Below are positions 19,493-37,699 of a stretch of DNA of 64,000 nt, piece after piece. The notes beneath the pieces are model-generated. The model did no database searches. It had not been told where the DNA came from and saw only the letters and a list, made by a program, of their open reading frames with translations. How positions within the stretch are numbered: position 1 is the stretch's first letter; each line of letters starts with the position of its first letter. The position numbers and the translations under genes were made by a program. This DNA comes from Saprospiraceae bacterium (GTDB taxonomy: Bacteria > Bacteroidota > Bacteroidia > Chitinophagales > Saprospiraceae). The stretch covers positions 127,228-191,227 of the forward strand of contig JAHDEC010000002.1 of NCBI GenBank assembly GCA_020629035.1. The letters are read 5' to 3'.

Positions 19493-19523
19493 TTGTTGTC
19501 TTTTATGCAATAGTGTACTTTTG
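19493..19523 (+). promoter_or_regulatory. mutS2 promoter (-33 TTGTTG, -7 TACTTTTG)
   Basis: TTGTTG at 19493-19498 and TACTTTTG at 19516-19523 are 17 nt apart, a good match to the Bacteroidota promoter. The -7 element ends 4 nt before the ATG at 19528, implying a leaderless or nearly leaderless mRNA. Confidence 0.6.
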
Positions 19524-19527
19524 TGCC

Positions 19528-22039: not shown

Positions 22040-22738
22040 ATGTTCGATTTTTCATCGATTCAATATAATTCCGAAAACCCTTCTTTAGTCTATGTAGGCA
22101 TCACCATGCTTACGGCTTTGCTACTGGGCTTCATGATAGCATTTACTTATGAAAAAACGTCGCGTGATGTAAACCGACCTGATAGTTTTATTCAGGCTAT
22201 GATTTTAGTTACAGTTGTAGCAGCAACCATTATGCAAGCTATTGGAGATAGTGTGGCTAGAGGTTTAGGTATGCTAGGTGCACTTTCCATCATTCGATTT
22301 AGAACGACCATTCGAAATGCTCGAAATATCGTTTTTATGTTTGGCGCATTGGGGGCAGGTATTTCAGCTGGAGTATTTGGTCTTACAAGTGCTTTTGTAG
22401 GCGTTACTGTTTTTTGCTTAACAGCTTTCTTGCTTCGATTTTCTCACTTTAGCCCAGCCCATAATTTGCAAGGCAAGCTAACTTACGAAGTGCCCATTCA
22501 TTTTCAAGGTCAAAAAGACATTGAAAAACTAATTAAGAAACATGCACCTAGGCACACCCTGATAGGTTATAAAGTATATACAAGTTTAAAGAAGCATAAT
22601 TATGTTGAGTATCAATATCGGATAAAACTCGACGATGTGAAAGATGGAAATGCACTGGTTAATGCCATAAAAGGTTTATCTGAAGAAATCGATATGTCTA
22701 CGGTTAGTTTTAATCACTCAGATTTTGATGAAATATAA
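22040..22738 (+). CDS. DUF4956 membrane protein
   Basis: A 232-residue inner-membrane protein with about four helices (roughly 20-37, 49-70, 92-110 and 112-135) and a cytoplasmic C-terminal domain of about 90 residues. The block ARGLGMLGALSIIRFRTTIR followed by NARNIVFMFGALGAGISAG is the hallmark of DUF4956. In other bacteria this family is often encoded beside VTC-type polyphosphate polymerase domains and CotH proteins; that is known association, not function. Here no VTC gene is present. Instead an adaptor gene starts 2 nt downstream, then TolC-like and CotH genes. A weak -7 candidate (TAACTTTC, 22012-22019) precedes it. First gene of the operon. Confidence 0.85.
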   Translation: MFDFSSIQYNSENPSLVYVGITMLTALLLGFMIAFTYEKTSRDVNRPDSFIQAMILVTVVAATIMQAIGDSVARGLGMLGALSIIRFRTTIRNARNIVFMFGALGAGISAGVFGLTSAFVGVTVFCLTAFLLRFSHFSPAHNLQGKLTYEVPIHFQGQKDIEKLIKKHAPRHTLIGYKVYTSLKKHNYVEYQYRIKLDDVKDGNALVNAIKGLSEEIDMSTVSFNHSDFDEI

Positions 22739-22740
22739 GC

Positions 22741-23829
22741 ATGCGTAAATTTAAATTCATATATCTGCTCCTTATACCATTGATTTATGGCTTGTATGTT
22801 TTGACACAAAATGTTGGAGGTGAATCTGCCTTTTTTTACGGTTTTGCTGAGAACAAAGAAACTGAGCTTAGTCACACAGAAGATGTCGTCATAAAAGAAA
22901 TATTGGTGACACCTGGACAAACGGTGAAACAGGGAGATGTCATTATGATCGTAGAACGAAACGACATTGAACTACAAAAAATAACGGGGCAACTAGATAT
23001 CGACAAACTTCAAGTAGAACAGGCAATAGATAAAGAAAACATTTCGCAAGAAATACAGCTACTAGAGACAAGTTTTGTAACAAGTCAAGCAAAGTATGAT
23101 GCCGATATAAAACAACTGCAAGAACAAATTAAGTCGAAACAATCCGTTTTCAAAGGGCTGACTCACGTAGATGCAAGTCGAGTAGATGAGGTAGGAGCAG
23201 AAGAAAGAGCCGAAATCACCGCTTTATTAAACCAAAAAGAACTAGAGCGTAAGGAACATTCTATTAGGAAGGAAAGTCTAGAAACCAAAAAGAACCAGAT
23301 CGGTAAAAGTGAGTATTTAGTCAAGAAGAAAGTCAACGCTGAACTTGATCAATTAGAAGCAGAGGAGAAAAGCTTATCGATAAAAGCTCCATCAGATGGA
23401 ATCGTAGGGAATATCCAGGTGAGAGTGGGAGAAAACATTTCCTCATTTAATACCTTAATTAGCTTTTATGATAAAAATCCTACGGCAGTAAAAGGTTATG
23501 TCCACGAATCCATGATTTTGGAGGTTCAAGTTGGAGACAGTCTCCAAGTTTCATCGATAAATCAACCAAATCATATCATAGAAGGTCATGTTATTGGACT
23601 AGGAACTAGAATCGTAGAAATCCCCGAAAGATTAAGAAAAATGGCTGATTTTAAGACTTACGGAAGAGAGGTATTGATTTCGATTCCATCTAATAATCCT
23701 CTTCTCCAAAAAGAAAAAGTCTTGCTTAACCTTGGGGTAGTTGCACAAAGTGATAAAGAATCTTTAGCTGGATACAAAGCAGCAAAAAGAGAAAAAACAA
23801 TCTCCAAGCAGATTAAAAATATGCAATGA
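22741..23829 (+). CDS. HlyD-type periplasmic adaptor (membrane fusion protein)
   Basis: A 362-residue adaptor with one N-terminal membrane helix (about 5-22). It has a split biotinyl/lipoyl-like domain (VIKEILVTPGQTVKQGDVIM and LSIKAPSDGIVGNIQVRVGE), a long coiled-coil hairpin between the halves (about 75-210), and a beta-barrel part (VKGYVHESMILEVQVGDSLQ). Such proteins bridge an inner-membrane pump and an outer-membrane TolC channel. No ABC, RND or MFS pump is encoded here; the only membrane protein beside it is DUF4956, 2 nt upstream, which may be its partner (inference). The stop overlaps the TolC-like gene (ATGA). Confidence 0.85.
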   Translation: MRKFKFIYLLLIPLIYGLYVLTQNVGGESAFFYGFAENKETELSHTEDVVIKEILVTPGQTVKQGDVIMIVERNDIELQKITGQLDIDKLQVEQAIDKENISQEIQLLETSFVTSQAKYDADIKQLQEQIKSKQSVFKGLTHVDASRVDEVGAEERAEITALLNQKELERKEHSIRKESLETKKNQIGKSEYLVKKKVNAELDQLEAEEKSLSIKAPSDGIVGNIQVRVGENISSFNTLISFYDKNPTAVKGYVHESMILEVQVGDSLQVSSINQPNHIIEGHVIGLGTRIVEIPERLRKMADFKTYGREVLISIPSNNPLLQKEKVLLNLGVVAQSDKESLAGYKAAKREKTISKQIKNMQ

Positions 23830-25055
23830 GAAATAGCCTCTTTTGCATAGTATTTTTATTCATTGGGTTTGCTGGTGCCAGTCAATCAGTTAATTGGACT
23901 CAACTCCTTAATAATGCGGCTGAAGACCCAATTGCAGACAGATATTTAGATGCTTCTCAAGTCGATTATGGTGATATTTCTATCATCGATAAATTAGAAT
24001 TTAGAACTGAAACGGACGAATTTGATTTAGACCGACAGGAGTATACCTTTAGGTCAAGTTTTATTAACCCAGCACAAAGACGGATTTCCCGACAACTATC
24101 CAATAATCAAGGAGAAGAATACAACATAAAAGCTAAAGAAAGGATTACCGAAAATTACTTAGCATGCTATGAGTCTATCATAGATCTATACTTTCTAAGT
24201 GAAAAACAAAAGCTCCAAGAGGAGATCTTGTCAATATTATCTGATGAAAAGATTGTGCTAGATAAAGAAATCGTAACTGACCCAGCAGGAAAAGTCATGG
24301 AGCTATACGATTTAGAAGAAGAAATTAATGAAGAAACGTTTAAATTAAACAGACAAGCATTAGTATTGCAACAATTGAAAAAAGGTCTTTTCGTAGATGA
24401 AATAGAAGAAATAAATTGGTCAAACTTTATTTGCATTCCAAGTTTAATGGCTAGAATGCAAACTATGCAGGAAGCTATAAAATCACATCCAGATCTAGCT
24501 TTTGAAGAAAACCAGTTACAAGCCAATGAGATTAAGCTACAATTAGAAAAAGCAAGCCAAGATCAGTTAGTCGATTTCTTGCAATTAAAATATAACGGGC
24601 CACGAAATAATCTGACAACTGCTGAAACCTTTAGCATTGGAGCTGGCTTTATCATCCCAACAAAAAATAAAAACAGGGAGCGATTTAATCGTATTGAGCG
24701 AGATATGCTGGAAAATGAGATTGAATTGGAAGAAATTGTCGTGCTTATTAACAATGATATCCTTAGTATAATGAATAAGTTGTCTATTTTAGACGATGAA
24801 AGAACTTGGCTCATAGAGCGCATTGAAAATAATGACTTAGAAGAACAATTACTTGATAGCACTAAAGGTTTGCTTCAAAATCCATCTGATATTTTGAAAA
24901 TCAAAAAGAAGCAAATCGAGCGTCAAGAGGAATTACTTTCAGTCGAACATGAAATGCACAAATTGCACTTAGAATTACTCGAAACTACCGGTGCTATTTT
25001 TAATGATTCAAGCATTAATTATTTGCATGAGCTGCAGAGCTCAATAGACAACTAA
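23826..25055 (+). CDS. TolC-like outer-membrane efflux protein
   Basis: A 409-residue protein with a cleavable signal ending near residue 19 (FAGASQS) and long alpha-helical hairpins typical of TolC. The second repeat shows SHPDLAFEENQLQANEIKLQ, then the strand-helix part with FSIGAGFIIPTKNKNRERF, a common TolC-family pattern. It is slightly shorter than usual and the first repeat is weak, so sequence identity to model TolC proteins must be low. It is coupled to the adaptor gene by ATGA, making a tripartite-type envelope-spanning channel likely. The CotH gene follows after 11 nt. Confidence 0.8.
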   Translation: MRNSLFCIVFLFIGFAGASQSVNWTQLLNNAAEDPIADRYLDASQVDYGDISIIDKLEFRTETDEFDLDRQEYTFRSSFINPAQRRISRQLSNNQGEEYNIKAKERITENYLACYESIIDLYFLSEKQKLQEEILSILSDEKIVLDKEIVTDPAGKVMELYDLEEEINEETFKLNRQALVLQQLKKGLFVDEIEEINWSNFICIPSLMARMQTMQEAIKSHPDLAFEENQLQANEIKLQLEKASQDQLVDFLQLKYNGPRNNLTTAETFSIGAGFIIPTKNKNRERFNRIERDMLENEIELEEIVVLINNDILSIMNKLSILDDERTWLIERIENNDLEEQLLDSTKGLLQNPSDILKIKKKQIERQEELLSVEHEMHKLHLELLETTGAIFNDSSINYLHELQSSIDN

Positions 25056-25066
25056 AAAACACAACG

Positions 25067-27601
25067 ATGAAGCAAATTTTACTCTTCTTATTTATTTTTT
25101 GCCAAGCGCAACTTTTTGGACAATTAATGATTAACGAATATTCTGCATCCAATTTAGATCAGTTTATTGACGAACATGCAAAATTCGAAGATTGGATAGA
25201 GATTTATAATGCTAGCTCAGAAGCTATAGATATTTCAGGTTATTTTCTGTCTGATAAAATAGATAATGTGGACAAATATCCGATTCCAGAAGGAACTGTG
25301 ATTGCTGGAAATGATGTAATGCGATTTTGGTGTTCTGGAAGAGCAGAAGGTAAACATACAAGCTTTAAACTTACGCAAACGGAAGGTGAAGACTATGTCG
25401 TGATCTCTGACCCTGACAAAAATATCTTGGATAGTCATCCTTTAGCACTTACCTTAGAAGGTCACTCTAGGGCTAGATTAGAAGACGGATCAGATGAATG
25501 GAGGATTTGTTCGACACCTACACCTAACAATCCGAATAATGGAGAATTTTTTACACGATATGCAGAAACTCCATCAGTGGATGTTACAGCTGGATTTTTT
25601 ACAGATGAGGTAGTGGTAACAATCACTAACCCAGAACCTGAAGGCACGCTTAGATATACACTTGATGGTTTGTTGCCGACGGAAGAATCTGAAGAGTACA
25701 CCGGTCCAATTACCATTAATAGCACAACTGTCATAAAAGCTATGTCTTTTGTCGATGACCCAGAAGTGGCTGTTGGTAAAATGGTATTTGGAACCTATTT
25801 TATAAACGAAGACTTTTCCTTACCTGTGGTTTCAGTAGCTGGTAATCAAGTTCAAACATTGGCAAATGGTAACAATACACTTAGACCTACAGCTTCGGTA
25901 GAATATTTCAATGTTGATAAATTAAGAACCGCCACTTCATACGGTAAAATGAATAAACACGGACAGGATTCATGGGTCAATGATCATCGTAGCTTGGATG
26001 TTGTTTGTCGCGACGAGATGGGATATTCTAAGGCCATCAAGGAACGTTTATTTTCTTACTCTGATCGTGATGAGCACCAGCGATTGATGCTTCGAGCTTC
26101 CGGAGATGATAATTATCCAGCAACCGATATGCAGCAGCATGAGGGATCTTGCCATGTGAGAGATGAATATGTGCACACCTTGGCTTTAGAAGGAGGTATG
26201 AAATTAGATGTTCGTGCAGTAGAAAGAATCATTGTTTTTATTGATGGCATTTATTGGGGTGTCTATGGATTGAGAGAGCGTCCTGTCGATCATGATTACA
26301 CTAAATATTTCTATGATCAAGATAAGTTCAACTTACAATATTTAGCTACTTGGGGAAATACTTGGGCAGAATACGGTGGTGAACAGGCCTTTGAAGACTG
26401 GGGAGAGTTAAGAGACTTTATCATGAATAATGATATGGGTATTGCCGAAAATTACGAATATGTAAAAGATAATTTGCAGACTTTGAGCTTGATAGACTAT
26501 ATGATTGCCAACTTAAATTCTGTAGCATCTGACTGGTTAAACTATAACACTGGATGGTGGCGAGGAATAGATCCAGATGGAGATCACAAAAAGTGGGGTT
26601 ATATCCTATGGGATAATGATGCGACCTTTGATTATTATATTAACTATTCAGGGGTACCCAATACAGATCCTGATGCTGTACCTTGTGATATCGATGATAT
26701 TTCAGAATTTATGGATGAGTTCTTTAATGGCTGGTGGGGCGATGGAGATGTAGGGTTACATGAAAAAATATTTTTAAAGCTGCAGGAAGAAAACGATGAG
26801 TTTAGACAATTATATTATTCAAGACAGGCTGATTTAATGAACACTGTTTATACCTGTGAGAACATGTTAGGTACTTTAGATCGTATGATTGGGGTTATAG
26901 CGCCAGAAATGCCAAGACAAATTGAGCGATGGGGTGGTTCTATGGAAGAATGGGAATCTAACGTGGCAAGATTAAGAGGTTTCATTGAAGAACGTTGTAC
27001 CTTATTAGATGATGGGATGGTGGATTGTTTTGATGTAGAAGGACCTTATGAGATCACTTTGTTGATGGAGCCAGAAGGAGTAGGAGAGATTGACATTAAT
27101 ACTTTAGATATCGAGGAATTCCCTTGGACGGGTTCTTACTTTGGAAATATGGATAACCTTATTGAAGCAAACGGAAAAGACACTGATCTTGAGTTTTTGC
27201 ATTGGGAAAGCAAATCAGGCAATGAGATTTTCCCAAGTAAATTTTCAAAATCAGCTATTATCCATGTTAACCAGCCAGATACGCTGATTGCTGTGTTTGG
27301 TACACCTTCAGATGTACAAAATCTTAAAAACTCCATTCCTGGAAAAGTTTATCCTTCTCCTGCTAATGATTTTGTCAATGTTGATTATAGTTTGGTAACA
27401 GGAAGCCATGTAAATTTCAGTTTGAATGATTTAAGTGGAAGAAACATTGCACAGTTTAGAAGCGTTAGTGGTTTTAAAGCGGCAGGTGATCATACTGAAA
27501 GCATACATTTAGAACCTTATGGTTTAACGCCAGGTATGTATACTTTGGAGTTGCAATCAGATAGTAAATCATCGAATTTTAAACTGGTGATTGTGGAGTA
27601 G
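25067..27601 (+). CDS. Secreted CotH kinase-like protein with lamin-tail domain and T9SS sorting domain
   Basis: An 844-residue protein secreted through the type IX system. Order: signal peptide (1-19, ending FGQ); lamin-tail domain (about 20-135, LMINEYSASNLDQFIDEHAK); chitobiase C-terminal-like domain (about 165-255, GTLRYTLDGLLPTEESEEY with STTVIKAMSF); CotH domain (about 270-640) with LMLRASGDDNYPATD, YWGVYGLRERPVDHDYTK and WGYILWDNDATF, where Asp516 and Asp518 are candidate metal ligands; then a C-terminal type A sorting domain (about 764-844, KVYPSPANDFVNV to the end). CotH of Bacillus spores is an atypical protein kinase. It is the last gene of the DUF4956 operon, with a strong terminator after it. 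Kinase activity here is inference. Confidence 0.88.
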   Translation: MKQILLFLFIFCQAQLFGQLMINEYSASNLDQFIDEHAKFEDWIEIYNASSEAIDISGYFLSDKIDNVDKYPIPEGTVIAGNDVMRFWCSGRAEGKHTSFKLTQTEGEDYVVISDPDKNILDSHPLALTLEGHSRARLEDGSDEWRICSTPTPNNPNNGEFFTRYAETPSVDVTAGFFTDEVVVTITNPEPEGTLRYTLDGLLPTEESEEYTGPITINSTTVIKAMSFVDDPEVAVGKMVFGTYFINEDFSLPVVSVAGNQVQTLANGNNTLRPTASVEYFNVDKLRTATSYGKMNKHGQDSWVNDHRSLDVVCRDEMGYSKAIKERLFSYSDRDEHQRLMLRASGDDNYPATDMQQHEGSCHVRDEYVHTLALEGGMKLDVRAVERIIVFIDGIYWGVYGLRERPVDHDYTKYFYDQDKFNLQYLATWGNTWAEYGGEQAFEDWGELRDFIMNNDMGIAENYEYVKDNLQTLSLIDYMIANLNSVASDWLNYNTGWWRGIDPDGDHKKWGYILWDNDATFDYYINYSGVPNTDPDAVPCDIDDISEFMDEFFNGWWGDGDVGLHEKIFLKLQEENDEFRQLYYSRQADLMNTVYTCENMLGTLDRMIGVIAPEMPRQIERWGGSMEEWESNVARLRGFIEERCTLLDDGMVDCFDVEGPYEITLLMEPEGVGEIDINTLDIEEFPWTGSYFGNMDNLIEANGKDTDLEFLHWESKSGNEIFPSKFSKSAIIHVNQPDTLIAVFGTPSDVQNLKNSIPGKVYPSPANDFVNVDYSLVTGSHVNFSLNDLSGRNIAQFRSVSGFKAAGDHTESIHLEPYGLTPGMYTLELQSDSKSSNFKLVIVE

Positions 27602-27626
27602 AATTTATTTAATGATAAGATATTTT

Positions 27627-27662
27627 AAGAGTGCTAGGCTATGTCTGGTGCTCTTTTTTTTG
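27627..27662 (+). terminator. Rho-independent terminator after the CotH gene
   Basis: An 11-bp stem (27627-27637 with 27645-27655, including three G.U pairs) with a 7-nt loop, followed directly by a T run. It closes the DUF4956-to-CotH operon. Confidence 0.85.
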
Positions 27663-27843
27663 TTTTGATAGTTAACGGGTGTCTTATGCAATGTTCTTTT
27701 AATTTATTAACTTATGGGAGCAACTGGAGCAGCATTAAAAATAAGTGGCGGTTGATGACAATTTACTGTTTGATGCGGAGCGCTTCGATGATACATAGCA
27801 AATAATTCGCAATTTATATCGTAAGTCTAAACAATGATTTTTG

Positions 27844-27868
27844 TTTCTTTTGATCAAGGCAAAAGAAA
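27844..27868. repeat. Perfect 9-bp inverted repeat
   Basis: TTTCTTTTG at 27844-27852 and CAAAAGAAA at 27860-27868, with a 7-nt loop. No T tract follows on either strand, so it is probably not a terminator. It may be part of a dispersed intergenic element. Confidence 0.5.
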
Positions 27869-28092
27869 ATTGAATACAACTAATACTTAGCAATTCTACA
27901 TCGCGACTCCAAACCGCTAAGTGCGTAATAAAATATTACTGAAAACAAATTAACTATTAATAACCCAAAACAAACACATTAAACATTTTTATATATGTAA
28001 AACATTCCTTACCTTCGTAAACTAAGACCTGCCCATATTTCATTTGAGATGATCATAGTAACCTAGCTAGATTAAAAATGAAATAAGCAATC

Positions 28093-31000
28093 ATGATTAA
28101 ATACAATAATGGATTAACATCGCTAATTAGCTTAGCATTACTTTTTATATCCATAAACGGCATTGGCCAACAAGCACCTTGTGTGCCTGCACCAGCTGAT
28201 GTAACTTTAGAGGTAATAGGTGAACCCAATAATATAACGGCACCACAAGATCAGGCCGATGTCTACTCCAACGGAAGGGTAGTACCTACCATCCATGAAA
28301 TGCTTGGAGTTAACCTCTTAAAAGGAAATGAAAATAGTTTCCATCAGATGGAAAACTTAACGGATATGTTTTCTCATGCTCGTTTATTCCAGTTTCAAAA
28401 CAAAGATTATTGGGATGATGGGGTAGGCGAACCACATTCAGGAGATCCGTCTTCTTACCGGATATTTACCCCGTATAAAGATAGAAATAGACTTAAATTG
28501 GCAGTAGATGTAAATGGTGTGCCACTCGTAAGAAATGGAGTGCAACCAGGAGATAGAATGGTTTACTATGATTCACTGACGAATCAAATGATGGAAGAAC
28601 CCTTGCTATCAGTCTATAATGTATATACAAATTACTTAAATCAGAATTACCATCATGCAGTATCAGTATATAACGAGTTTCAAAATCCTTCGCATATTTC
28701 ATTAACGGTAGTTCCAGCTAACTTTCCGCAAGATATCCAGTCTGATTATGGTTTTCCTTCCCAATGGTGGACAGCTTCGGATTGGGGTGTAGATTATGCT
28801 CAGCGATTTGAGGCAGGACGTGCTTATGCCATGATGTTTGCTCGTACGTATGCTCCTAAAGCCAGCGATTGTGCCACTTGCATAAAGCTGGTAGAAGTAC
28901 TAGAGGTCGGAAACGAACCTTGGGCTTATGACCAAGATGTATATCATGCTGTAATAGATGGGATGATTCAAGGAATCGAAGAATATTATGCTGCTGATCC
29001 AACGAATAAATTATTACTTATTCCGGCAGCTTATCAAGCCAATCATGAAGAAAACAACAACCCAGTCAGCTTTAACTATTTAGACTGGAAAGATTATCAA
29101 GGAACTAGAATTCCACTAGATAAAAAATGCTACTTACATGGTACCAACTTACATCCATATTCTAATGATTTAGCAGACGAAGGAACTGGGTTTTATAATC
29201 AAAGACTGATTGCTCAACCAGAAAAAACCAGTGCTGCAAATGTGGGTGAATCAAAATACCTCTATGTAAAAAATGCTTGGAAGTGGAGTGAAGAGAATAT
29301 GCCAGTAGGTTCTCAACATCTATATGTCTCCGAGTTTGGCTGGGATTCTGAAGTGCCAGTTTGTGATGGACTCAATGTTACTGGAGTAGGAGAGGAAGCT
29401 CAGGGATTATACATAGTAAGGGCGACCTTAATGGCTGCACGGAATGGTGTCCACCGTGCTGAAGCCTATGAAGCTATTGATAATTATGCAAGTCCATGTG
29501 ATTTTGCCTACCATAGTAGTGGCTTATGGGATCGATTAAATGACGGTTCGGTTGCGCAAAAACAAAGTAAAGAAACCGTTCATAAATTTATCGAGCTCAC
29601 CGGAAATCTAAAATTTAATTACTCACTAGTAGAAACAGCTCAGGACGAATATGCTTATGCATTAGAAGATGCTAGCGGGACTCCTGTTTACCTTGTTGGC
29701 TGGTTAGCACGAAACGTAAATACATTAGATTGGACGACCATCGATGGGATTATAAAGTCTAACATTAGTCTTAACCTAAATTTTAATGGGAATAACTATG
29801 AAGTAGATCTTAGCAATGATTGGTATTATTTAGATAACAATATCACGACTGATGCAGGCGCTAATGTCACGGACCTTTTTCCAATCGCAGATATTACTGA
29901 AGTCTACGATGCAGGAAGCGAAACATTCAGGTTTAGACCTGTACCTGTATTGATACCTATCGGGAAAGTAAAAGATGACATCAGCTGCTCAGGAGAAATC
30001 ACAAATCCTAGTTGTTTTATGTCCAATGACGGGACCATTATGGTGGATGTATCAGCTGGTACAGCCCCATTTTCATATAATTGGTCACACGATGCCTTAG
30101 TTAATCAGTCAAACCTAAGCGATTTATCGCCGGGGACTTATGAGGTAGAAATCGAAGATGCAACAGGTTTAACTACTAGCTGTACGTTTGAGATCTTACC
30201 AACGGAGCAAGTAGAAATTGGAAATATTTTAGTGGATAATGCCACTTGTGGTCAAAACAATGGGACGCTTAGCATTATTGCAGAACCCAAGGACGGAAAC
30301 CCCAATAGCGTCTTAAGCTATAGCATAGATAATGGTACAAGCTTTCATGCTAGTTCAATGTTTACTGATCTATCAGCCGGTACTTATCAAGTCGTAGTGC
30401 AAGATGCAGATGGTTGTGGAGCAAAAGCCATGACACAAATTTCGGATGAAAGCGGCACAACTACGAGCATTGCAGCAGCCTGTAATGGCACAGCTACTAT
30501 AGATATTCTTTTAACTATTTCTGGAGGTACTGAGCCTTATGAAGTTCTATGGGAAGGACCAACTGGACTTATGTATACCACAGAGAATTTGATGGATGTA
30601 CCTGAGGGAATGTATATGTTGCAAGTAACTGATGCAAACGACTGTGTGACTATGGATGTGGTAAACTTAGAAGATTGTTGCTTAACGGCTAATTTTTGTA
30701 ATGTAGCAAGCATTGATCCTGTGTGTGAAGATGATTTAGGAGTGATCAGTTTAACATCTTATGGTGGCTTACCACCTTATGATTTTACTTGGAGTCATGA
30801 TATGAGCTTTGAAGGCCCGATTGCTACGAATCTTATGCCAGGGAATTATACAATAACCGTTGTAGATGACAACGAATGTCAGGCCATTTGCGAAGTAACA
30901 GTAGAACCTGGTGAAGCCATTACTATAGATGAAATCCAAATTACTGCTTCTACTTGTCAGGCAAGTAATGGAGCTATTAGAATTTCAGCGCTTCCTAAAA

Positions 31001-34000
31001 ATGGAAACCCAAGTAGTGCACTTCAATATAGTATCGATGGAGGAACTAATTTCCAGGCAGACGGCTTATTTGAAGATTTACCTGCTGGAAGTTACAATCT
31101 TGTAATCAGAGATTTAGATGGATGTTCGCTGACAGATATGCTCATGATTAATGATGAAGAAAGCCCGACTGTTCAGTTAGCAGCAGCCTGTAATGGTACA
31201 GCCATGATCGATATTGTATCTATTGTTTCTGGAGGAACTGCACCTTATGTTTTTGAATGGCTAGGCCCTGATGGAGCCATGTATGATTCGGAAAAACTAG
31301 ATGGTGTCCCAGAAGGTACTTATATGCTAAGCTTAAAGGATGCTAATGGTTGTCAAACAACAGCGATGGTAACAAGAGAAAATTGTTGTGGAATCATAAA
31401 TTATTGTAATAAAGCGGTGGGCCAATTAACATGCTCTGATGATACCGGTACGATCATTTATGGACCTGTAGGAGGCGTCTATCCTTTCTATTACGAATGG
31501 AGTCATGATCCTGATTTAAATGGTGACACAGCTCTCGATTTACCACCTGGCAATTATTTTGTCACGATGACTGATGCTAATGGATGTGTAGCAGAATGCA
31601 GCGCTTCTATTCTAAGCGTAAACCCAATAACTATAGATGAACTTGTTGTAACGAATGCCTCATGTGGACAAACAAATGGTAGCCTATTAATTAATGCAAG
31701 TCCAAAAGACTTAAACCCAAGTAGTACATTATCTTATAGTATCGATGGAGGTTTGAGTTTCTCAACGACTAACTTATTTGAAGATTTAGCGTCTGGAAAC
31801 TACACCATCATGATTCAAGATTCAGATGCTTGCATGACTTCTCAAATGGTGATGCTTTCTGATGAAGATGGCCCATCCATAGATCTGCAAGCTAAGTGTG
31901 ATGGTATGGGAATCATTATAGATGCAACGCTATCTGGCGGTATCGAACCGTATAGTTTCGAATGGACTGGACCAGGAGGGGCAAGCTACAGTACTAAAGA
32001 TCTGATGAATGTGCCGCCAGGTGAATATATGTTGATGGTTAAAGATGCAAATGGTTGTCAAGCTAGTGCCTCGATTATTAAAGATGATTGTTGTGATCCA
32101 AGTAAGTTTTGCGAGTTAGATATTACGCAGCCGACTTGTGCATCTGATCTAGGCTATGCTAGCTTTAATCCTGAAGGTGGAACTAGCCCATATACCTATG
32201 ATTGGAGTCATGATGCTACATTCACAAGTTCTTGGGCTGATAATTTAGCATCAGGTGATTACACAGTAACCATCAGTGATGAAAGCGGATGTATGTCTAT
32301 TTGCATGTTTAGCATAAACAACGGAGCTGACATCAGCATTGAACAAATAAATAATACTGCAGCTACTTGTGGTGCTTCTAATGCTAGCATCACTATCGAA
32401 GCTACTCCGAAAGATGCTAATCCTAATAGCCTATTATCATACAGTATAGACAACGGCTTAAGCTTTCAATCTAGTAATATGTTTGCCAATGTTGCAGCTG
32501 GTTCATATACCATTGTAGTTCAAGATATGGATGGATGTTCGGCTACAGAAATGGTATTAATTTCGAATGAAGATGGACCCATACTTCAAATGAATTCAAC
32601 TTGTAATGGGACTAACATAGATATTGATTTAGAAATAACGGGAGGAACGATGCCTTATCAAATCGAGTGGTCAGGTCCTAATGGAGCAACTTATAGTTCC
32701 GAAGATTTAATGGATGTCCCTGTCGGAGCGTACATGATTACGGTAAAAGACGCTAATAATTGTCAGGCAACTGAATTTATCATACAAGATAATTGCTGTG
32801 AGACTAGTAATTTCTGTAATATGATAGTAACTCAGCCTGTTTGTTTTACTGACCCTGGAAGCATAAGCCTTTCACCACTTGGTGGTGCAGCGCCTTTCGA
32901 TTATAGTTGGGATCATGATCCAGGCTTAAATGACATGATAGCAAGTAATTTAGTGGCTGGAAATTATCACTTTACGATCACTGATAACAAGGGTTGTATG
33001 GAAGCCTGTATGGCGACAATTGAGCCTGTTGCAAAGATCAATGTGGAAGATCCTATCATTACAGAGTCTTCTTGTGGAGAATCAAATGGTAGTCTTACTA
33101 TTGTTGCGATACCTAAAGATGGCACAAGTACTTTAAGCTATAGCATTGATGCTGGACTCAGTTTTCAGCCAAGCCCATTGTTTGAAAATCTATCAGCTGG
33201 AAATTATTCGGTGGTTATTCTAGATTCGGATGGATGTAGTTTAGCTAAAACAGTGATGATTTCAGATGCTGCCGGACCGTCGATTACCTTAAGTTCAGCA
33301 TGCAATGGAGCTAATATTGATATTGATGCAGCAATAGTAGGAGGAGTTGGACCTTACGACATTGAATGGATGGGACCAGATAATACGGTCTATAGTACTG
33401 AAGATTTAGTAGCTGTCCCTGCAGGAAATTATGTACTTAAAGTCGTAGATGCTAATGATTGCCAGGCGATGACAAGTATAACTAAAGATGATTGTTGCAA
33501 CCCTAGTAATTTCTGTATGCTTTCAGTTATTCAGCCAACATGTTTAAGTGATTTTGGGGCTATCAGTCTTAATCCAGCAGGTGGAGAAGCTCCATATAGT
33601 TATGATTGGAGCCATGATGGAAGTTTTACACAAGCATCCGCTACCAATCTATCAGCAGGTAATTATACCATTAGCATTACTGATAACATGGGTTGCATGA
33701 GCGTTTGTTCAGCGAGTATAAACTCCATATCGACAATCAACATTGAACAAATAAATACAACATCATCAAGTTGTGGTGCTTCGAATGGAAGTATATCGAT
33801 CCAAGCCACACCAAAAGACAGTGATATAAATAGTATGCTGACTTATAGTATTGATAACGGCGTAAACTTTCAGCTAAGTGGGATGTTTGCCAATGTTGCT
33901 CAAGGTTCATACAACATAATCGTTAGAGATAGTGATGCTTGTCAAGTTACAGAAATGGTTAGTGTGTCCAATGAAGATGGCCCGGTAATTAGTCTTGATG

Positions 34001-36906
34001 CTAATTGTTTAGCAGGTGGATTAATCGAGATAAACGCAAGCCTTAGCAATGGAGAAACTCCTTATCAATATGAATGGACTGGACCTGATGGGACAACCTT
34101 TAATACTGAAGATTTATCGAACGTAGTAGCAGGTCTTTATATGCTTCAAGTGACAGATAATAATGGTTGCTTGGCGATGAGCAGTATAAACAAAGATGAT
34201 TGTTGTGATCCTGCTAACTTCTGTACAGTGAGCCTGATTCAGCCAGATTGCGATGGTGGCTTAGGAAGCATTAGTTTTAGCCCAGAGGGTGGTACCGCTC
34301 CTTATGGATATGCTTGGAGTCACGATAATGCCATCACCTCTTCATCAGTTAGTGATTTAGATGCTGGAGAATACAATGTGACAGTCTCTGATTCGGATGG
34401 ATGCTTTTCTGTTTGCACGCTTATTATGGACCCAGCTGCTGGATTGACCATTGATGATATCGAAGTAAACCCATCAGTTTGTAATGAAGATAATGGAAGC
34501 ATAAACATTCTGGCAACGCCTAATAATGGGAATGATGTAAACACCTTATCATACAGTATAGATGGTGGTTTAAATTTTAGTGCAAGTCCGCTATTTAGCA
34601 ACTTGAGTGTAGGTACTTATGATATTGTGGTTCGAGATGGAAATGGCTGTGAAGAAAGAGATATGATATTGATTTCGGATGCAGAAGGTCCAAGTTTATC
34701 AGTAGCCCAAACTTGTGTGGGTATCGATCTGATTGATTTAAAAGTAGATATTTCAGGAGGTTTAACGCCTTATGAATATGCTTGGGAAGGACCTAATGGC
34801 TTTACTTCGGTTGAGAAAGATTTAGAAGAGGTAGCCGCAGGTAATTACGTACTAAAAGTCTGGGATTCTAATGATTGCGAAAGCATGGCGATGGTCGAAT
34901 TCATTGATTGTTGTATAGAAAGTGATTTTTGTAATTATTCGATTGGTGATTTAGTGTGGAAAGATGACAACGCTAATGGAGTTCAGGACCCAGGCGAGCA
35001 ACCTGTCGAGGGAGTAGAGGTACATCTGCATGACTGTACCTTAGGTTATTTATCATCTACTTTTACAGATACCAATGGAAATTTTAGCTTTGATGATTTG
35101 GCTCCTGCTTTATACAAATTACAATTCGAATTTGCCTTGCCAAATGTAGGTTTCACCTATAATAATCAGGGAATAGATACAGCGATTGATAGCGATGTAT
35201 CAGGAACTGGATGGACCTCTTGTTTTGCCATTGAACAAGAAAATAGATTAGATATTGATGCTGGTTTAATAGATTTAGGAGCACTGGGAGGCAATGTTTG
35301 GGAAGATATGAATGCTAATGGAGTACAAGATGGATCAGAACCCGCCATTGAAGGAATCCGTATAGAATTATATGATGATCAATCGATGTTTATTGGAACT
35401 GAGTACTCAGATGCGTTTGGAGCTTATTTGTTTGAAGATCTATATCCGGCTGGTTATTACCTGAAATTTTATCCTTCTAATTATGAGCTAACTTTCCCTA
35501 ACGAGGCTGGTGATGATGAACTGGATAGTGATGTTGATGATGCTAACGGCATTGGCACAACAGCAATAACTCAAGTGGTTGTCGGTTATACAGATTTATC
35601 ATGGGATGCAGGATTTTATGAGTGTGTGGAAATTGGTGATCAAGTTTGGTACGATCAAAACGGGAATAGTTTGTTGGAAGCCATTGAAAGTGGAATAAAT
35701 AATGTAAAAGTTGAAGTTTATTATTGGAAAGATGGTGTCTTCAGTCTTTGGGCCGATACCTTTTCTGATGTAAATCCTGAGACCGGGAAAGATGGTCATT
35801 GGACACTCTGTATTCCTCCTGGAGATTTTTATGTTCAATATAGTGCAATCCCAGATGGTATGGTTGCCGTAAAAGACCATTTTGGTAATGACGAATTAGA
35901 TTCTGATATCGACGAATTCAATGGTCAAAATACCACACAAACATATACTGTTACTAGCGGTCAAACGGATCTGAGCATAGATGCAGGATTCTTCGAAGAG
36001 GCGAGAATAGAAGGCAAGGTCTGGCTCGATGAAAATCTGAATGGTATCAGAGAAATAGACGAGCCATGCTTAAGTGATGTAGGTATAGAATTATACGATG
36101 TAGATGGTACTTGGTTAGCCAGCTTGGATACCGATGAAGATGGCAAATACAGCTTTGATAATCAGCGATGCAGAGAAGTATACATTAAGGTATTCCCGCC
36201 AGCAGGATATATGCTTACTGGACCCAATCAAGGATTAGAAGATACCGATAGTGACATAGATCAGAGCTATGGAGAAAATACTTCTAATAGTTTCACTTTA
36301 GAGTCTGGAGGTTTAGTGTCCAATGTCGATATAGGCTTATTAAATATTGTTGTTTCGACTGCATGGCAGTCAATAGAGGCAGAATATAACAATGAGGCTA
36401 TAGATATAAGATGGATGATGACGAACCAATTAGGCATTGTGAACTACTATGTAGAGCGCAGCCTCGATGGAATTAACTTTACTAGTTTATCCAGTATGGA
36501 CGTCACCGAATTAAAAGAATACCATTACAAAGATGGAGAGGTACTGATGGATAAAACGTACTATTATCGAGTAAAGTGTCTTAAACTGGATGGCACATTT
36601 AGTTATACAGACATAGTGAATGCAAAAACACCAGTAGGCACCTTGGCAGAGATGATTATTTATCCGAATCCATCAGATGGTGTAGTCATTTTAGCTTTCG
36701 AAACTAAAGTAGATGTAACAAACATTAATGTAGAAATCATAGATAACACAGGAAGCTTAGTTCAGCTTATTCAAGTTCAAGAAACCTTTAGAGCGGGTAA
36801 ACAAAAAATATCCCTTAAACTGGATGTTGCTCCAGGTGTTTATCAATGCTTAATAAAAGCTGGACAACAATCATTTATAGAATCATTAATTATTCAAAAT
36901 GAGTAG
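28093..36906 (+). CDS. Giant secreted protein: clan-A-like glycoside hydrolase, SprB-like super-repeats, SdrD-B-like domains, T9SS tail
   Basis: 2937 residues. A signal peptide (1-26, ending GIGQ) leads to a TIM-barrel-like domain (about 45-620). It has the acid/base motif EVGNEPW (Glu275) and the nucleophile motif YVSEFGW (Glu414), as in glycoside hydrolase clan A; the exact family is not recognised. Residues 641-2283 are seven tandem super-repeats of 233-237 residues. Each has three SprB-like modules, marked by WSHD, YSIDNG and EWxGPxG, and ends in a CC-x(4-5)-FC motif. Four SdrD-B-like domains follow (VWxDxNxNG at about 2285, 2397, 2515 and 2641), then a fibronectin-like part (about 2752-2840) and a type A sorting domain (2853-2937). 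It is expected to be displayed on the surface, acting on a polysaccharide or as an adhesin. Confidence 0.85.
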   Translation: MIKYNNGLTSLISLALLFISINGIGQQAPCVPAPADVTLEVIGEPNNITAPQDQADVYSNGRVVPTIHEMLGVNLLKGNENSFHQMENLTDMFSHARLFQFQNKDYWDDGVGEPHSGDPSSYRIFTPYKDRNRLKLAVDVNGVPLVRNGVQPGDRMVYYDSLTNQMMEEPLLSVYNVYTNYLNQNYHHAVSVYNEFQNPSHISLTVVPANFPQDIQSDYGFPSQWWTASDWGVDYAQRFEAGRAYAMMFARTYAPKASDCATCIKLVEVLEVGNEPWAYDQDVYHAVIDGMIQGIEEYYAADPTNKLLLIPAAYQANHEENNNPVSFNYLDWKDYQGTRIPLDKKCYLHGTNLHPYSNDLADEGTGFYNQRLIAQPEKTSAANVGESKYLYVKNAWKWSEENMPVGSQHLYVSEFGWDSEVPVCDGLNVTGVGEEAQGLYIVRATLMAARNGVHRAEAYEAIDNYASPCDFAYHSSGLWDRLNDGSVAQKQSKETVHKFIELTGNLKFNYSLVETAQDEYAYALEDASGTPVYLVGWLARNVNTLDWTTIDGIIKSNISLNLNFNGNNYEVDLSNDWYYLDNNITTDAGANVTDLFPIADITEVYDAGSETFRFRPVPVLIPIGKVKDDISCSGEITNPSCFMSNDGTIMVDVSAGTAPFSYNWSHDALVNQSNLSDLSPGTYEVEIEDATGLTTSCTFEILPTEQVEIGNILVDNATCGQNNGTLSIIAEPKDGNPNSVLSYSIDNGTSFHASSMFTDLSAGTYQVVVQDADGCGAKAMTQISDESGTTTSIAAACNGTATIDILLTISGGTEPYEVLWEGPTGLMYTTENLMDVPEGMYMLQVTDANDCVTMDVVNLEDCCLTANFCNVASIDPVCEDDLGVISLTSYGGLPPYDFTWSHDMSFEGPIATNLMPGNYTITVVDDNECQAICEVTVEPGEAITIDEIQITASTCQASNGAIRISALPKNGNPSSALQYSIDGGTNFQADGLFEDLPAGSYNLVIRDLDGCSLTDMLMINDEESPTVQLAAACNGTAMIDIVSIVSGGTAPYVFEWLGPDGAMYDSEKLDGVPEGTYMLSLKDANGCQTTAMVTRENCCGIINYCNKAVGQLTCSDDTGTIIYGPVGGVYPFYYEWSHDPDLNGDTALDLPPGNYFVTMTDANGCVAECSASILSVNPITIDELVVTNASCGQTNGSLLINASPKDLNPSSTLSYSIDGGLSFSTTNLFEDLASGNYTIMIQDSDACMTSQMVMLSDEDGPSIDLQAKCDGMGIIIDATLSGGIEPYSFEWTGPGGASYSTKDLMNVPPGEYMLMVKDANGCQASASIIKDDCCDPSKFCELDITQPTCASDLGYASFNPEGGTSPYTYDWSHDATFTSSWADNLASGDYTVTISDESGCMSICMFSINNGADISIEQINNTAATCGASNASITIEATPKDANPNSLLSYSIDNGLSFQSSNMFANVAAGSYTIVVQDMDGCSATEMVLISNEDGPILQMNSTCNGTNIDIDLEITGGTMPYQIEWSGPNGATYSSEDLMDVPVGAYMITVKDANNCQATEFIIQDNCCETSNFCNMIVTQPVCFTDPGSISLSPLGGAAPFDYSWDHDPGLNDMIASNLVAGNYHFTITDNKGCMEACMATIEPVAKINVEDPIITESSCGESNGSLTIVAIPKDGTSTLSYSIDAGLSFQPSPLFENLSAGNYSVVILDSDGCSLAKTVMISDAAGPSITLSSACNGANIDIDAAIVGGVGPYDIEWMGPDNTVYSTEDLVAVPAGNYVLKVVDANDCQAMTSITKDDCCNPSNFCMLSVIQPTCLSDFGAISLNPAGGEAPYSYDWSHDGSFTQASATNLSAGNYTISITDNMGCMSVCSASINSISTINIEQINTTSSSCGASNGSISIQATPKDSDINSMLTYSIDNGVNFQLSGMFANVAQGSYNIIVRDSDACQVTEMVSVSNEDGPVISLDANCLAGGLIEINASLSNGETPYQYEWTGPDGTTFNTEDLSNVVAGLYMLQVTDNNGCLAMSSINKDDCCDPANFCTVSLIQPDCDGGLGSISFSPEGGTAPYGYAWSHDNAITSSSVSDLDAGEYNVTVSDSDGCFSVCTLIMDPAAGLTIDDIEVNPSVCNEDNGSINILATPNNGNDVNTLSYSIDGGLNFSASPLFSNLSVGTYDIVVRDGNGCEERDMILISDAEGPSLSVAQTCVGIDLIDLKVDISGGLTPYEYAWEGPNGFTSVEKDLEEVAAGNYVLKVWDSNDCESMAMVEFIDCCIESDFCNYSIGDLVWKDDNANGVQDPGEQPVEGVEVHLHDCTLGYLSSTFTDTNGNFSFDDLAPALYKLQFEFALPNVGFTYNNQGIDTAIDSDVSGTGWTSCFAIEQENRLDIDAGLIDLGALGGNVWEDMNANGVQDGSEPAIEGIRIELYDDQSMFIGTEYSDAFGAYLFEDLYPAGYYLKFYPSNYELTFPNEAGDDELDSDVDDANGIGTTAITQVVVGYTDLSWDAGFYECVEIGDQVWYDQNGNSLLEAIESGINNVKVEVYYWKDGVFSLWADTFSDVNPETGKDGHWTLCIPPGDFYVQYSAIPDGMVAVKDHFGNDELDSDIDEFNGQNTTQTYTVTSGQTDLSIDAGFFEEARIEGKVWLDENLNGIREIDEPCLSDVGIELYDVDGTWLASLDTDEDGKYSFDNQRCREVYIKVFPPAGYMLTGPNQGLEDTDSDIDQSYGENTSNSFTLESGGLVSNVDIGLLNIVVSTAWQSIEAEYNNEAIDIRWMMTNQLGIVNYYVERSLDGINFTSLSSMDVTELKEYHYKDGEVLMDKTYYYRVKCLKLDGTFSYTDIVNAKTPVGTLAEMIIYPNPSDGVVILAFETKVDVTNINVEIIDNTGSLVQLIQVQETFRAGKQKISLKLDVAPGVYQCLIKAGQQSFIESLIIQNE
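30013..34945 (+). repeat. Seven tandem ~705-bp coding super-repeats
   Basis: The first conserved Cys codon of each unit is at 30013, 30724, 31432, 32137, 32842, 33541 and 34249, giving periods of 711, 708, 705, 705, 699 and 708 bp. Units are diverged at DNA level but keep the same three-module protein order. Confidence 0.85.
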
Positions 36907-36967: not shown

Positions 36968-37018
36968 ATCTTATAAAGATTATTTGATGTGCCCTCAGTT
37001 AAATCTAATCCATTTCCA

Positions 37019-37699
37019 ATGAATCAAACCAAGGAAAAACTACTGGCTTCAGCTAAAGAATTATTAAAGAATGGATGGAGTCCCGGCGATATCTATAAGT
37101 GGATAAAAGAAAAAGCTGATACAGAAGAAGATCGGGCATGGATATCTAGTCAGGTCTTTAATAAAGCCAAGCTTACAAATACGCCCAAAGATCAGTCTGA
37201 AATTATCTTTAAGCGTGAAGTGGTGAATGCTCAATATCTAAAAAAGGAAGCTGAGACAAGCTTTGGTAATTTAAGTGTTGTGAGTTTAGGGTTTTTAATG
37301 CTGGGCTTATTGCTTTTAGTCCTTTCATTGTTATTCGAAGGACATAATTATTATCATGCTGTATTTTGTCTAGTCACTGGAATAGGAATGTTTGCTATTC
37401 TTAAGCTGGCTGATATTAAATTTAGCAATAGAGCATTGTATTTAATGATTGGCTTAGTAATTTTTATATTGTTAGAATTATTCTCCTTAGGTCTTCCCAA
37501 TGTTTTAATTCCTAATTTAGGAAGATTCGGAGATAAACAAATGGTAAATATTATCACCATTGTGAATGAGGTATTTCCATGGATCTATTATGCCATTAAA
37601 GTTGGATTACTAGTTGTGCCAGTAAAGTATTTTATCCAGCTTAAAAAACTAGAGGCACTTCCACAGAAAATTAAACAAGAAATAAGGTATAAACTATAA
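37019..37699 (+). CDS. Four-helix membrane protein of unknown function
   Basis: A 226-residue protein not recognised as any named family. The cytoplasmic N-terminal part (1-75) is charged and helical, with LLKNGWSPGDIYKWIKEK. Four hydrophobic helices follow (roughly 87-108, 116-137, 143-163 and 185-205), then a short basic tail. The ATG at 37019 is preferred; a GTG ten codons upstream is in frame but the added residues look non-coding. It stands alone after the strong hairpin and before the DUF3179 gene. Confidence 0.6.
   Translation: MNQTKEKLLASAKELLKNGWSPGDIYKWIKEKADTEEDRAWISSQVFNKAKLTNTPKDQSEIIFKREVVNAQYLKKEAETSFGNLSVVSLGFLMLGLLLLVLSLLFEGHNYYHAVFCLVTGIGMFAILKLADIKFSNRALYLMIGLVIFILLELFSLGLPNVLIPNLGRFGDKQMVNIITIVNEVFPWIYYAIKVGLLVVPVKYFIQLKKLEALPQKIKQEIRYKL

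Follow-up and report, generated by a model that had tools for sequence, protein, structure and literature searches.

A conserved DUF4956-HlyD-TolC gene cassette in Saprospiraceae and other bacteria as a probable pump-less conduit, with polyphosphate as a possible cargo

Where a periplasmic adaptor is paired with an outer-membrane channel, the two are generally regarded as components of an RND, ABC or MFS pump. MgtC-type proteins are regulators that consist of five transmembrane (TM) helices and an ACT-like C-terminal domain, and we know of no work by members of the MgtC/SapB family together with adaptors or channels. In yeast, the VTC complex is described as coupling polyphosphate synthesis to translocation through a basic channel, the polyphosphate path being lined by basic residues (PMC9911596). 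For the pel loci of Gram-positive bacteria, CotH, a polyphosphate polymerase and DUF4956 are named as accessories (PMC7112168, PMC12345266), and VTC and CotH genes are reported for the locus NELoc-2 of C. perfringens (PMC2879425). In S. intermedius, loss of SIR_1592, described as an MgtC + ACT protein, is reported to raise the Pel level and lower aggregation, and loss of the CotH gene SIR_1594 to lower both; no such change is reported for deletion of the polymerase gene SIR_1593 (PMC12345266). From the gene set named in PMC7112168 we infer that SIR_1592 is a DUF4956 homologue. These mutant effects, as reported, suggest a role in the extracellular matrix and leave room for a cargo other than polyphosphate. 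The same report states that the trio SIR_1592-1594 was not found together outside the Pel locus (PMC12345266); in our comparison of the gene run alone, locus L150 held DUF4956, VTC and CotH together. In Bacteroides thetaiotaomicron, the DUF4956 and DUF2490 genes BT3498-BT3499 are reported in an iron-dependent set (PMC10434189), and DUF2490 is a possible further envelope partner of DUF4956. In the literature searched, we saw no paper joining DUF4956 with an adaptor and a channel; DUF4956 is mentioned there in three papers, one of which, PMC10434189, also mentions HlyD.

The window, that is, the whole stretch of 64,000 nt analysed from Saprospiraceae bacterium GCA_020629035.1, carries four closely packed genes on the + strand. 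They code for a DUF4956 protein of 232 aa (22040-22738), an HlyD/EmrA-type periplasmic adaptor of 362 aa (22741-23829), a TolC/OprM-type outer-membrane channel of 409 aa (23826-25055), and a secreted CotH kinase-like protein of 844 aa (25067-27601). The first two genes are 2 nt apart, the second and third overlap by 4 nt, and the CotH gene starts 11 nt after the channel gene. A terminator-like stem-loop on the same strand (27627-27655; 13 pairs followed by a T run) marks the end of the unit, and a giant T9SS surface protein of 2937 aa is encoded behind it, also on the + strand (28093-36906), after a gap of 491 nt from the CotH gene. The tight packing and the terminator before the giant gene had both been noted in the first-pass annotation, and the coordinates agree with them. 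The terminator scan gave 5 terminator-like sites, fewer than the shuffled sequences (mean 10.0), and a scan for Bacteroidota-type promoter motifs gave no excess over shuffles. PADLOC returned 0 matches among five proteins tested, and an anti-phage system was rejected. The upstream mutS2 gene (19513-21906) was rejected as a member, its cluster comprising the window and two same-genus loci only. Downstream of the giant gene, 37775-40213 codes for a DUF3179 protein of 812 aa with an N-terminal carboxypeptidase-regulatory-like domain (below the Pfam cut-off), and 36989-37699 for a 236-aa protein that appears membrane-like and has a sub-threshold M50B hint, with no Pfam family at E<=0.001.

The first protein of the unit was assigned to DUF4956 (PF16316) with 48.5 bits against a curated cut-off of 30.6 (E 1.1e-12), and a profile search of the assembly found no other DUF4956 protein in its genome. 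In the AlphaFold2 model (pLDDT 82), five TM helices are predicted over residues 16-134. The C-terminal domain (residues 139-226), the part covered by VIA-align, resembles ferredoxin-like folds with Z up to 8.8 over ~80 residues; ACT and NikR domains ranked at the top and EF-G-type and snRNP domains were nearly equal, the ferredoxin-like arrangement being a common one. Foldseek gave no significant match of the model in the PDB, and the DUF4956 profile found nothing useful among PDB sequences. By our reading of the charges, the N-terminus lies outside and the C-terminal domain faces the cytoplasm. Two arginines at the predicted cytoplasmic end of TM3 (codons 22295-22303, + strand) form a conserved basic pair. 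In an alignment of 94 DUF4956 proteins from all lineages, R88 is invariant and R86 is retained in 91. Near the predicted periplasmic TM2-TM3 loop, G69 (87/87) and R74 (73/87) are kept in the two adaptor-linked lineages (the 87 rows include L056, with no adaptor seen nearby), and these positions are K/Q and L in seven DUF4956 proteins without an adaptor. This pattern would suit contact with the adaptor, but it could also reflect ancestry alone. DUF4956 of the HlyD-linked or sister type was present at E<=1e-30 in 199 of 398 genomes of the family sample, among the matches listed.

The adaptor matched the Pfam families HlyD_3 (E 2.7e-8) and HlyD_D23 (E 3.5e-7), its profile had EmrA as top match in the PDB (4tko, E 5.6e-10), and an N-terminal membrane anchor is predicted. 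A search of the genome for this adaptor subfamily scored 412 bits for the cassette protein and only 40 and 22 for the next two. The channel protein had no Pfam or NCBIfam match and its profile found nothing useful among PDB sequences, so that its earlier naming as TolC-like holds through its structure model and not through a family assignment. The AlphaFold2 model (mean pLDDT 91.7, alignment of 56 rows) gave 42 PDB matches at E<=1e-3 by Foldseek, all 42 of them outer-membrane factor channels (best E 6.9e-10), including TolC, OprM, and CusC. Sequence identities were 8-13%, and TM-scores normalised to the query were 0.44-0.59. Two other adaptors of the genome served as controls. One stands between a channel and an ACR_tran (RND) pump; the other lies behind a channel with a DUF2064 protein next, and no pump was seen within its short flank.

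The linkage of the three genes was strongly conserved. In a first sample of 100 relatives, 49 had a DUF4956 match, and among the 30 loci taken from them (L002-L031) an adaptor lay within the 1.5-kb flank in 25 (L002-L026, own genome included), the other five being distant or partial loci. A scan of named genomes, from which the best 80 of 572 relatives were kept, gave a called DUF4956 ORF in 79 loci (not in L156), and 77 remained after L093 and L140, which end at once. In all 77 the next gene codes for an HlyD adaptor. The channel was found within the next ORFs in 73 of the 77, and L154 and L155 were added by tblastn; L117 and L158 are truncated at the contig end before the channel, so that DUF4956-HlyD-TolC is complete in 75 of 75 loci with room for it. 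The channel frame is divided over two ORFs in L115 and L123, and one gene is inserted between adaptor and channel in L137 and L157. Among further regions picked by hand the cassette occurred in 20 of 20, at least 5 of which repeat loci of the 80-locus set. The DUF4956-HlyD-TolC linkage is thus a real cassette, far above chance. The first-pass annotation had named a lack of conserved linkage in related genomes as evidence against its proposal, and the linkage proved constant; when its four genes are considered together, the DUF4956, HlyD, and TolC genes are the constant part, and CotH is merely frequent (24 of 77 loci).

No pump gene was found among the ORFs and Pfam matches of the window's own operon, and no pump family held a steady position beside the cassette in 94 neighbourhoods, a set that contains some contigs twice. 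The main clusters there were DUF4956, adaptor, channel, CotH (36 loci, mostly on the same strand, upstream or downstream of the cassette), VTC (8), and an LTD protein behind VTC (7); representatives of 9 smaller clusters and of the ABC-ATPase cluster were annotated in addition. Among these, the ABC ATPases were the only pump-like cluster. They occurred in 10 of the 94 neighbourhoods, on both strands and with no position used more than twice; we judged them to be probable background and, within these annotations, rejected a hidden pump. Together with the conservation of the cassette, this supports the earlier proposal that DUF4956 may supply the inner-membrane component of a tripartite apparatus lacking a pump of its own. 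An ECF sigma factor cluster was seen in 8 of the 94 neighbourhoods. Clusters of histidine kinases and LytTR regulators were found in 8 loci each, mostly on the opposite strand behind the channel; the LytTR response regulator (L102, L103, L104, L108, L109, L115, L126, and L130), often accompanied by a Reg_prop histidine kinase, is a possible regulator of a subgroup, the Pfam assignment resting on one representative each.

In other phyla, VTC is a member of the operon as well. The set of 80 includes 13 loci from outside Bacteroidota (Fibrobacterota, Desulfobacteraceae, a deltaproteobacterium, Delongbacteria, and Planctomycetota), and in 11 of them VTC directly follows the channel, giving the order DUF4956-HlyD-TolC-VTC (8 by ORF; L152, L155, and L156 by tblastn); five of these 11 are from Fibrobacter, four being near-copies, and the remaining two loci, L140 and L158, end at a contig edge. 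The operon VTCs had yeast Vtc4 as top match in the PDB (3g3q, E 8.5e-14), and a single-sequence PDB search with VTC gave one chance match only. Their invariant residues R95, R97, and E232 (L124 numbering, 11-row alignment, matching counted by eye) align with R264, R266, and E426 of Vtc4, which are described as residues mutated to impair the enzyme (PMC9911596). A second lineage has the order HlyD-VTC-DUF4956 in six loci (L057, L059, and L061-L064), followed once, in L057, by a Pfam OEP channel. In the third lineage (L065-L071), VTC lies near DUF4956 in 5 of 7 loci and no adaptor was found; L065, L067, and L069 hold DUF4956, a protein of ~950-1000 aa (with a beta-helix match in L067), and then VTC, without adaptor or channel. 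Across 14 control genomes, DUF4956 and VTC matches occurred in the same three.

No VTC was found beside the cassette in the 67 Bacteroidota loci (ORFs and tblastn on the DNA around them), and VTC (PF09359) had no match in the window's own assembly, which is 96% complete, in agreement with the first reading that VTC is missing here. Its further suggestion that the adaptor-channel pair takes the place of VTC was ruled out, as VTC and the pair share one operon in those 11 of 13 non-Bacteroidota loci. Among 25 genomes with HlyD-type DUF4956, 14 do have VTC, always on a different contig from the cassette, and in 7 of the 14 it lies within ~5 kb of the other, distant DUF4956 type. In the DUF4956 tree of 94 rows (midpoint root), the VTC-less Bacteroidota were tolerated as one clade (p-AU 0.80), and the constrained search reached a log-likelihood 13.8 above the free search, so that a single loss of VTC would suffice. 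Since VTC is present in both outer lineages, loss is favoured over gain, and its absence from the Bacteroidota cassette, the window included, is probably due to loss.

Some further genes were observed around the VTC-bearing operons. Proteins with an LTD domain (510-707 aa; four identified by Pfam, the rest by phmmer) stand behind VTC in Fibrobacterota loci L124, L137, L151, L152, and L154-L157, and the CotH protein of the window likewise has LTD as its foremost domain. The inserted gene of the two Chitinispirillaceae loci (L137:11792-12748 and L157:11789-12709) codes for a phytase-like protein, PF13449 being above the cut-off in L157 and below it in L137. A 627-aa ORF behind DUF4956 in a Planctomycetota MAG (L158:10782-12665) has matches to the adaptor profile as well as to the L157 phytase-like protein, and is apparently a natural fusion of an adaptor with a phytase-like domain.

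In a few relatives, the slot behind the channel holds Ppk1 (genome handles in brackets). In L141 (G212) and L161 (G287), a same-strand ppk1 gene stands 12 nt behind the channel; in L115 (Neolewinella agarilytica; G156), the distance is 0.9 kb. All four Ppk domains were found by Pfam in L141 and L115, and the protein of L161 was named by phmmer. In a Ppk1 tree of 24 rows, the copies of L141 and L161 form their own clade, apart from the other ppk1 of those genomes; this clade is long-branched, as if specialised for the cassette. The L115 copy groups with second copies of another kind, relatives of which in G232, G280, G373, and G405 lie away from the cassette among the matches listed. A single clade for the three was rejected (p-AU 2.4e-7), so that Ppk1 was recruited behind the channel on two separate occasions. 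The DUF4956 proteins of the three loci fall within one starred clade of seven, and L162 of the same clade has downstream genes similar by size, without Ppk1. The linkage amounts to 3 of 41 genomes, a biased rate and a lower bound, as these genomes had been preselected for at least two ppk1 matches and a DUF4956 hit; by a rough estimate, the chance landing of a given gene at this slot would account for a few hundredths of a case over all loci. As a regular member of the cassette Ppk1 was rejected: ppk1 occurs in 368 of 398 genomes of the family, among the matches listed, and it lies behind the cassette in at least 3 of the 41 chosen genomes. In the window's genome a single ppk1 was found, and it is not on the contig of the cassette.

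The CotH protein of the window has an LTD domain, a chitobiase C-terminal-like domain, the CotH domain (PF08757, E 1.5e-23), and a Por_Secre_tail, and it keeps the conserved E404 and D516, the latter belonging to the WDxD motif and presumably being the catalytic residue. By PF08757 and this Asp it belongs to the CotH kinase family, and kinase activity is predicted; a single-sequence PDB search gave nothing useful. A CotH gene on the same strand near the cassette was detected by profiles (E<1e-5) in 24 of 77 loci and not in the other 53. The window's genome has ten CotH genes among ~3500 estimated genes, nine of the ten outside the window (the search gave 11 matches, two of which share an ORF); from these numbers we estimate that such proximity would arise by chance in about 1 in 100 cases. 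CotH, which the first-pass annotation took for a partner, is a frequent companion and not a constant one.

The giant protein carries SprB (6 stretches), SdrD_B (4), and Por_Secre_tail by Pfam, and it had no Pfam glycoside-hydrolase family, so that the glycoside-hydrolase label given to it earlier was not confirmed. For its N-terminal 632 residues, the ORFs of the loci gathered up to the 80-locus scan gave nothing related at E<1e-6. Behind the unit, the same-genus genome G001 carries a 497-aa gene followed by a SprB-repeat protein that differs from the giant, and G002, of the same genus too, a 576-aa gene followed by a MopE-repeat protein with a T9SS tail. With other genes at this place in same-genus genomes, and with 491 nt and a terminator between it and the unit, the giant was ruled out as a cassette member. 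The Por_Secre_tail, which bears out the earlier view of CotH as T9SS-secreted, marks both CotH and the giant as T9SS cargo by sorting domain, and the two thus have their own export route.

Building on the gene order, its conservation, the predicted folds, and the VTC and Ppk1 linkage in relatives, we infer a complex, a cargo, an energy source, and a role for CotH. The DUF4956, HlyD, and TolC proteins would assemble into one envelope-spanning conduit without a classical pump. DUF4956 would be its inner-membrane gate, with five TM helices and the arginine pair at the cytoplasmic mouth, and would hold the adaptor, while its ACT-like domain might act as a sensor reporting on a cytoplasmic ligand; HlyD would bridge the periplasm and TolC would cross the outer membrane. 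The cargo would most likely be polyphosphate or a similar phosphate-rich polyanion that is made in the cytoplasm, threaded out during synthesis, and pushed by its own synthesis, much as polyphosphate enters the yeast vacuole through VTC. The polymerase would be VTC in the sister operons and apparently Ppk1 in a few relatives, and in the window's genome the supply would fall to the ppk1 on another contig. Once outside, the phosphate would be encountered or used by secreted CotH proteins on the cell surface. A synthesis-coupled, pump-less tripartite conduit with an MgtC-like DUF4956 gate is, in our judgement, probable. Polyphosphate as its substrate falls a little short of an even chance, and is weakest for the VTC-less genome studied here, the cargo in VTC-less genomes being the weakest step of the explanation. 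The whole reading, a conduit that probably carries polyphosphate, with CotH using or contacting it outside, is our best explanation, and we regard it as evenly balanced between right and wrong.

The main rival view takes DUF4956 for a regulator of the MgtC kind whose ACT domain is a sensor. The co-transcribed adaptor and channel would belong to a housekeeping pump whose gene lies elsewhere, and DUF4956 would tune that pump or sense phosphate or Mg; VTC and Ppk1 would then be linked through phosphate homeostasis and not through export. The Pfam MgtC model (PF02308) matched the DUF4956 proteins of four relatives at E 1e-4 to 7e-4, all below the cut-off, and had 0 matches in the window's genome, and hhalign aligned DUF4956 and MgtC colinearly (E 0.0016) with a probability of only 16%. 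This recurrent though faint similarity is in line with the ferredoxin/ACT-like C-terminal domain and with the description of the putative homologue SIR_1592 as MgtC + ACT (PMC12345266). DUF4956 also occurs without HlyD (L065-L071 and Gram-positives), and may thus have a core function other than transport through the outer membrane. Against the regulator view stand the three genes, which stay together in all 75 loci with room and have no pump as a steady partner, the single strong adaptor of this subfamily in the window's genome, and an RND pump there that has its own adaptor and channel; a pump encoded at a distance may still take part. We consider the regulator view rather unlikely.

A real conduit with a cargo other than a polyphosphate chain is likewise unlikely in our estimation, though there are candidates, for example a nucleotide, phosphate or another small molecule from which extracellular CotH kinases would take phosphate, or else a glycopolymer carrying phosphate groups. 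This view is favoured by CotH, which among the extra partners occurs most often, and by VTC, which was found in none of the 67 Bacteroidota loci; the Ppk1 linkage, rare and 0.9 kb off in L115, counts against polyphosphate. Gram-positive homologues are also reported next to Pel polysaccharide genes (PMC7112168), and deletion of SIR_1592 or of the CotH gene is reported to alter the Pel level (PMC12345266). However, VTC and Ppk1, unrelated families both named for making polyphosphate, share the slot behind TolC, which argues for the polymer. The version of the first-pass annotation, an export apparatus with CotH and the giant SprB protein as its substrates or products, draws on the adjacency of CotH in part of the loci; it appears highly improbable given the T9SS tails on both proteins, the giant's unconserved place and N-terminal domain without relatives, and the 53 loci with no same-strand CotH detected nearby. 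A bolder form of the preferred conduit reading, which we offer tentatively and hold somewhat doubtful, is a fourth, pump-less class of TolC-linked exporters, in which an MgtC-like gate formed by DUF4956, an adaptor resembling EmrA, and a TolC-like channel would let a polymerase push cytoplasmic polyphosphate out of Gram-negative cells and so supply or scaffold the phosphate chemistry of secreted CotH kinases; the polymerase would be VTC, swapped at least twice for Ppk1.

If this were true, it would be the first dedicated bacterial polyphosphate secretion machine known to us. A conserved adaptor-channel pair whose sole steady inner-membrane partner is DUF4956 would represent a new mode of powering or gating. 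If the cargo is polyphosphate, the cassette would provide a defined machine, and strains in which to test it, for the problem of how polyphosphate gets outside bacterial cells, and a reason for the association of CotH kinase, DUF4956, and VTC in Gram-negatives and Gram-positives. The families are known singly, and their combination as a pump-less, polymerase-linked conduit is apparently new to us and to the literature searched.

Compared with the yeast VTC complex (Vtc1/Vtc3/Vtc4), the sister operons likewise hold a VTC with the catalytic residues of Vtc4 beside a small membrane protein with conserved basic residues, and synthesis would here too be coupled to passage through a membrane; however, the membrane part is DUF4956, the adaptor and outer-membrane channel are additional, and no VTC was detected in the window's genome. 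The Gram-positive pel loci also have DUF4956, a VTC-type polymerase, and CotH as adjacent families, whereas the published accounts, as far as consulted, name no adaptor or outer-membrane channel, which fits single-membrane cells, and link the genes to Pel polysaccharide (PMC7112168, PMC12345266). In C. perfringens NELoc-2, VTC and CotH again stand together, but DUF4956 is unnamed in the part of the account consulted (PMC2879425). DUF4956 possibly shares its membrane module and its ferredoxin/ACT-like C-terminal domain with MgtC/SapB proteins, though the profile similarity is weak and its scores stay below the Pfam MgtC cut-off. Finally, the cassette resembles the RND, ABC (MacAB, HlyBD), and MFS (EmrAB) exporters in combining an EmrA/MacA-like adaptor with a TolC/OprM-fold channel in one operon, and it differs from them in that the operon holds no pump and a DUF4956 protein stands at the pump's place.
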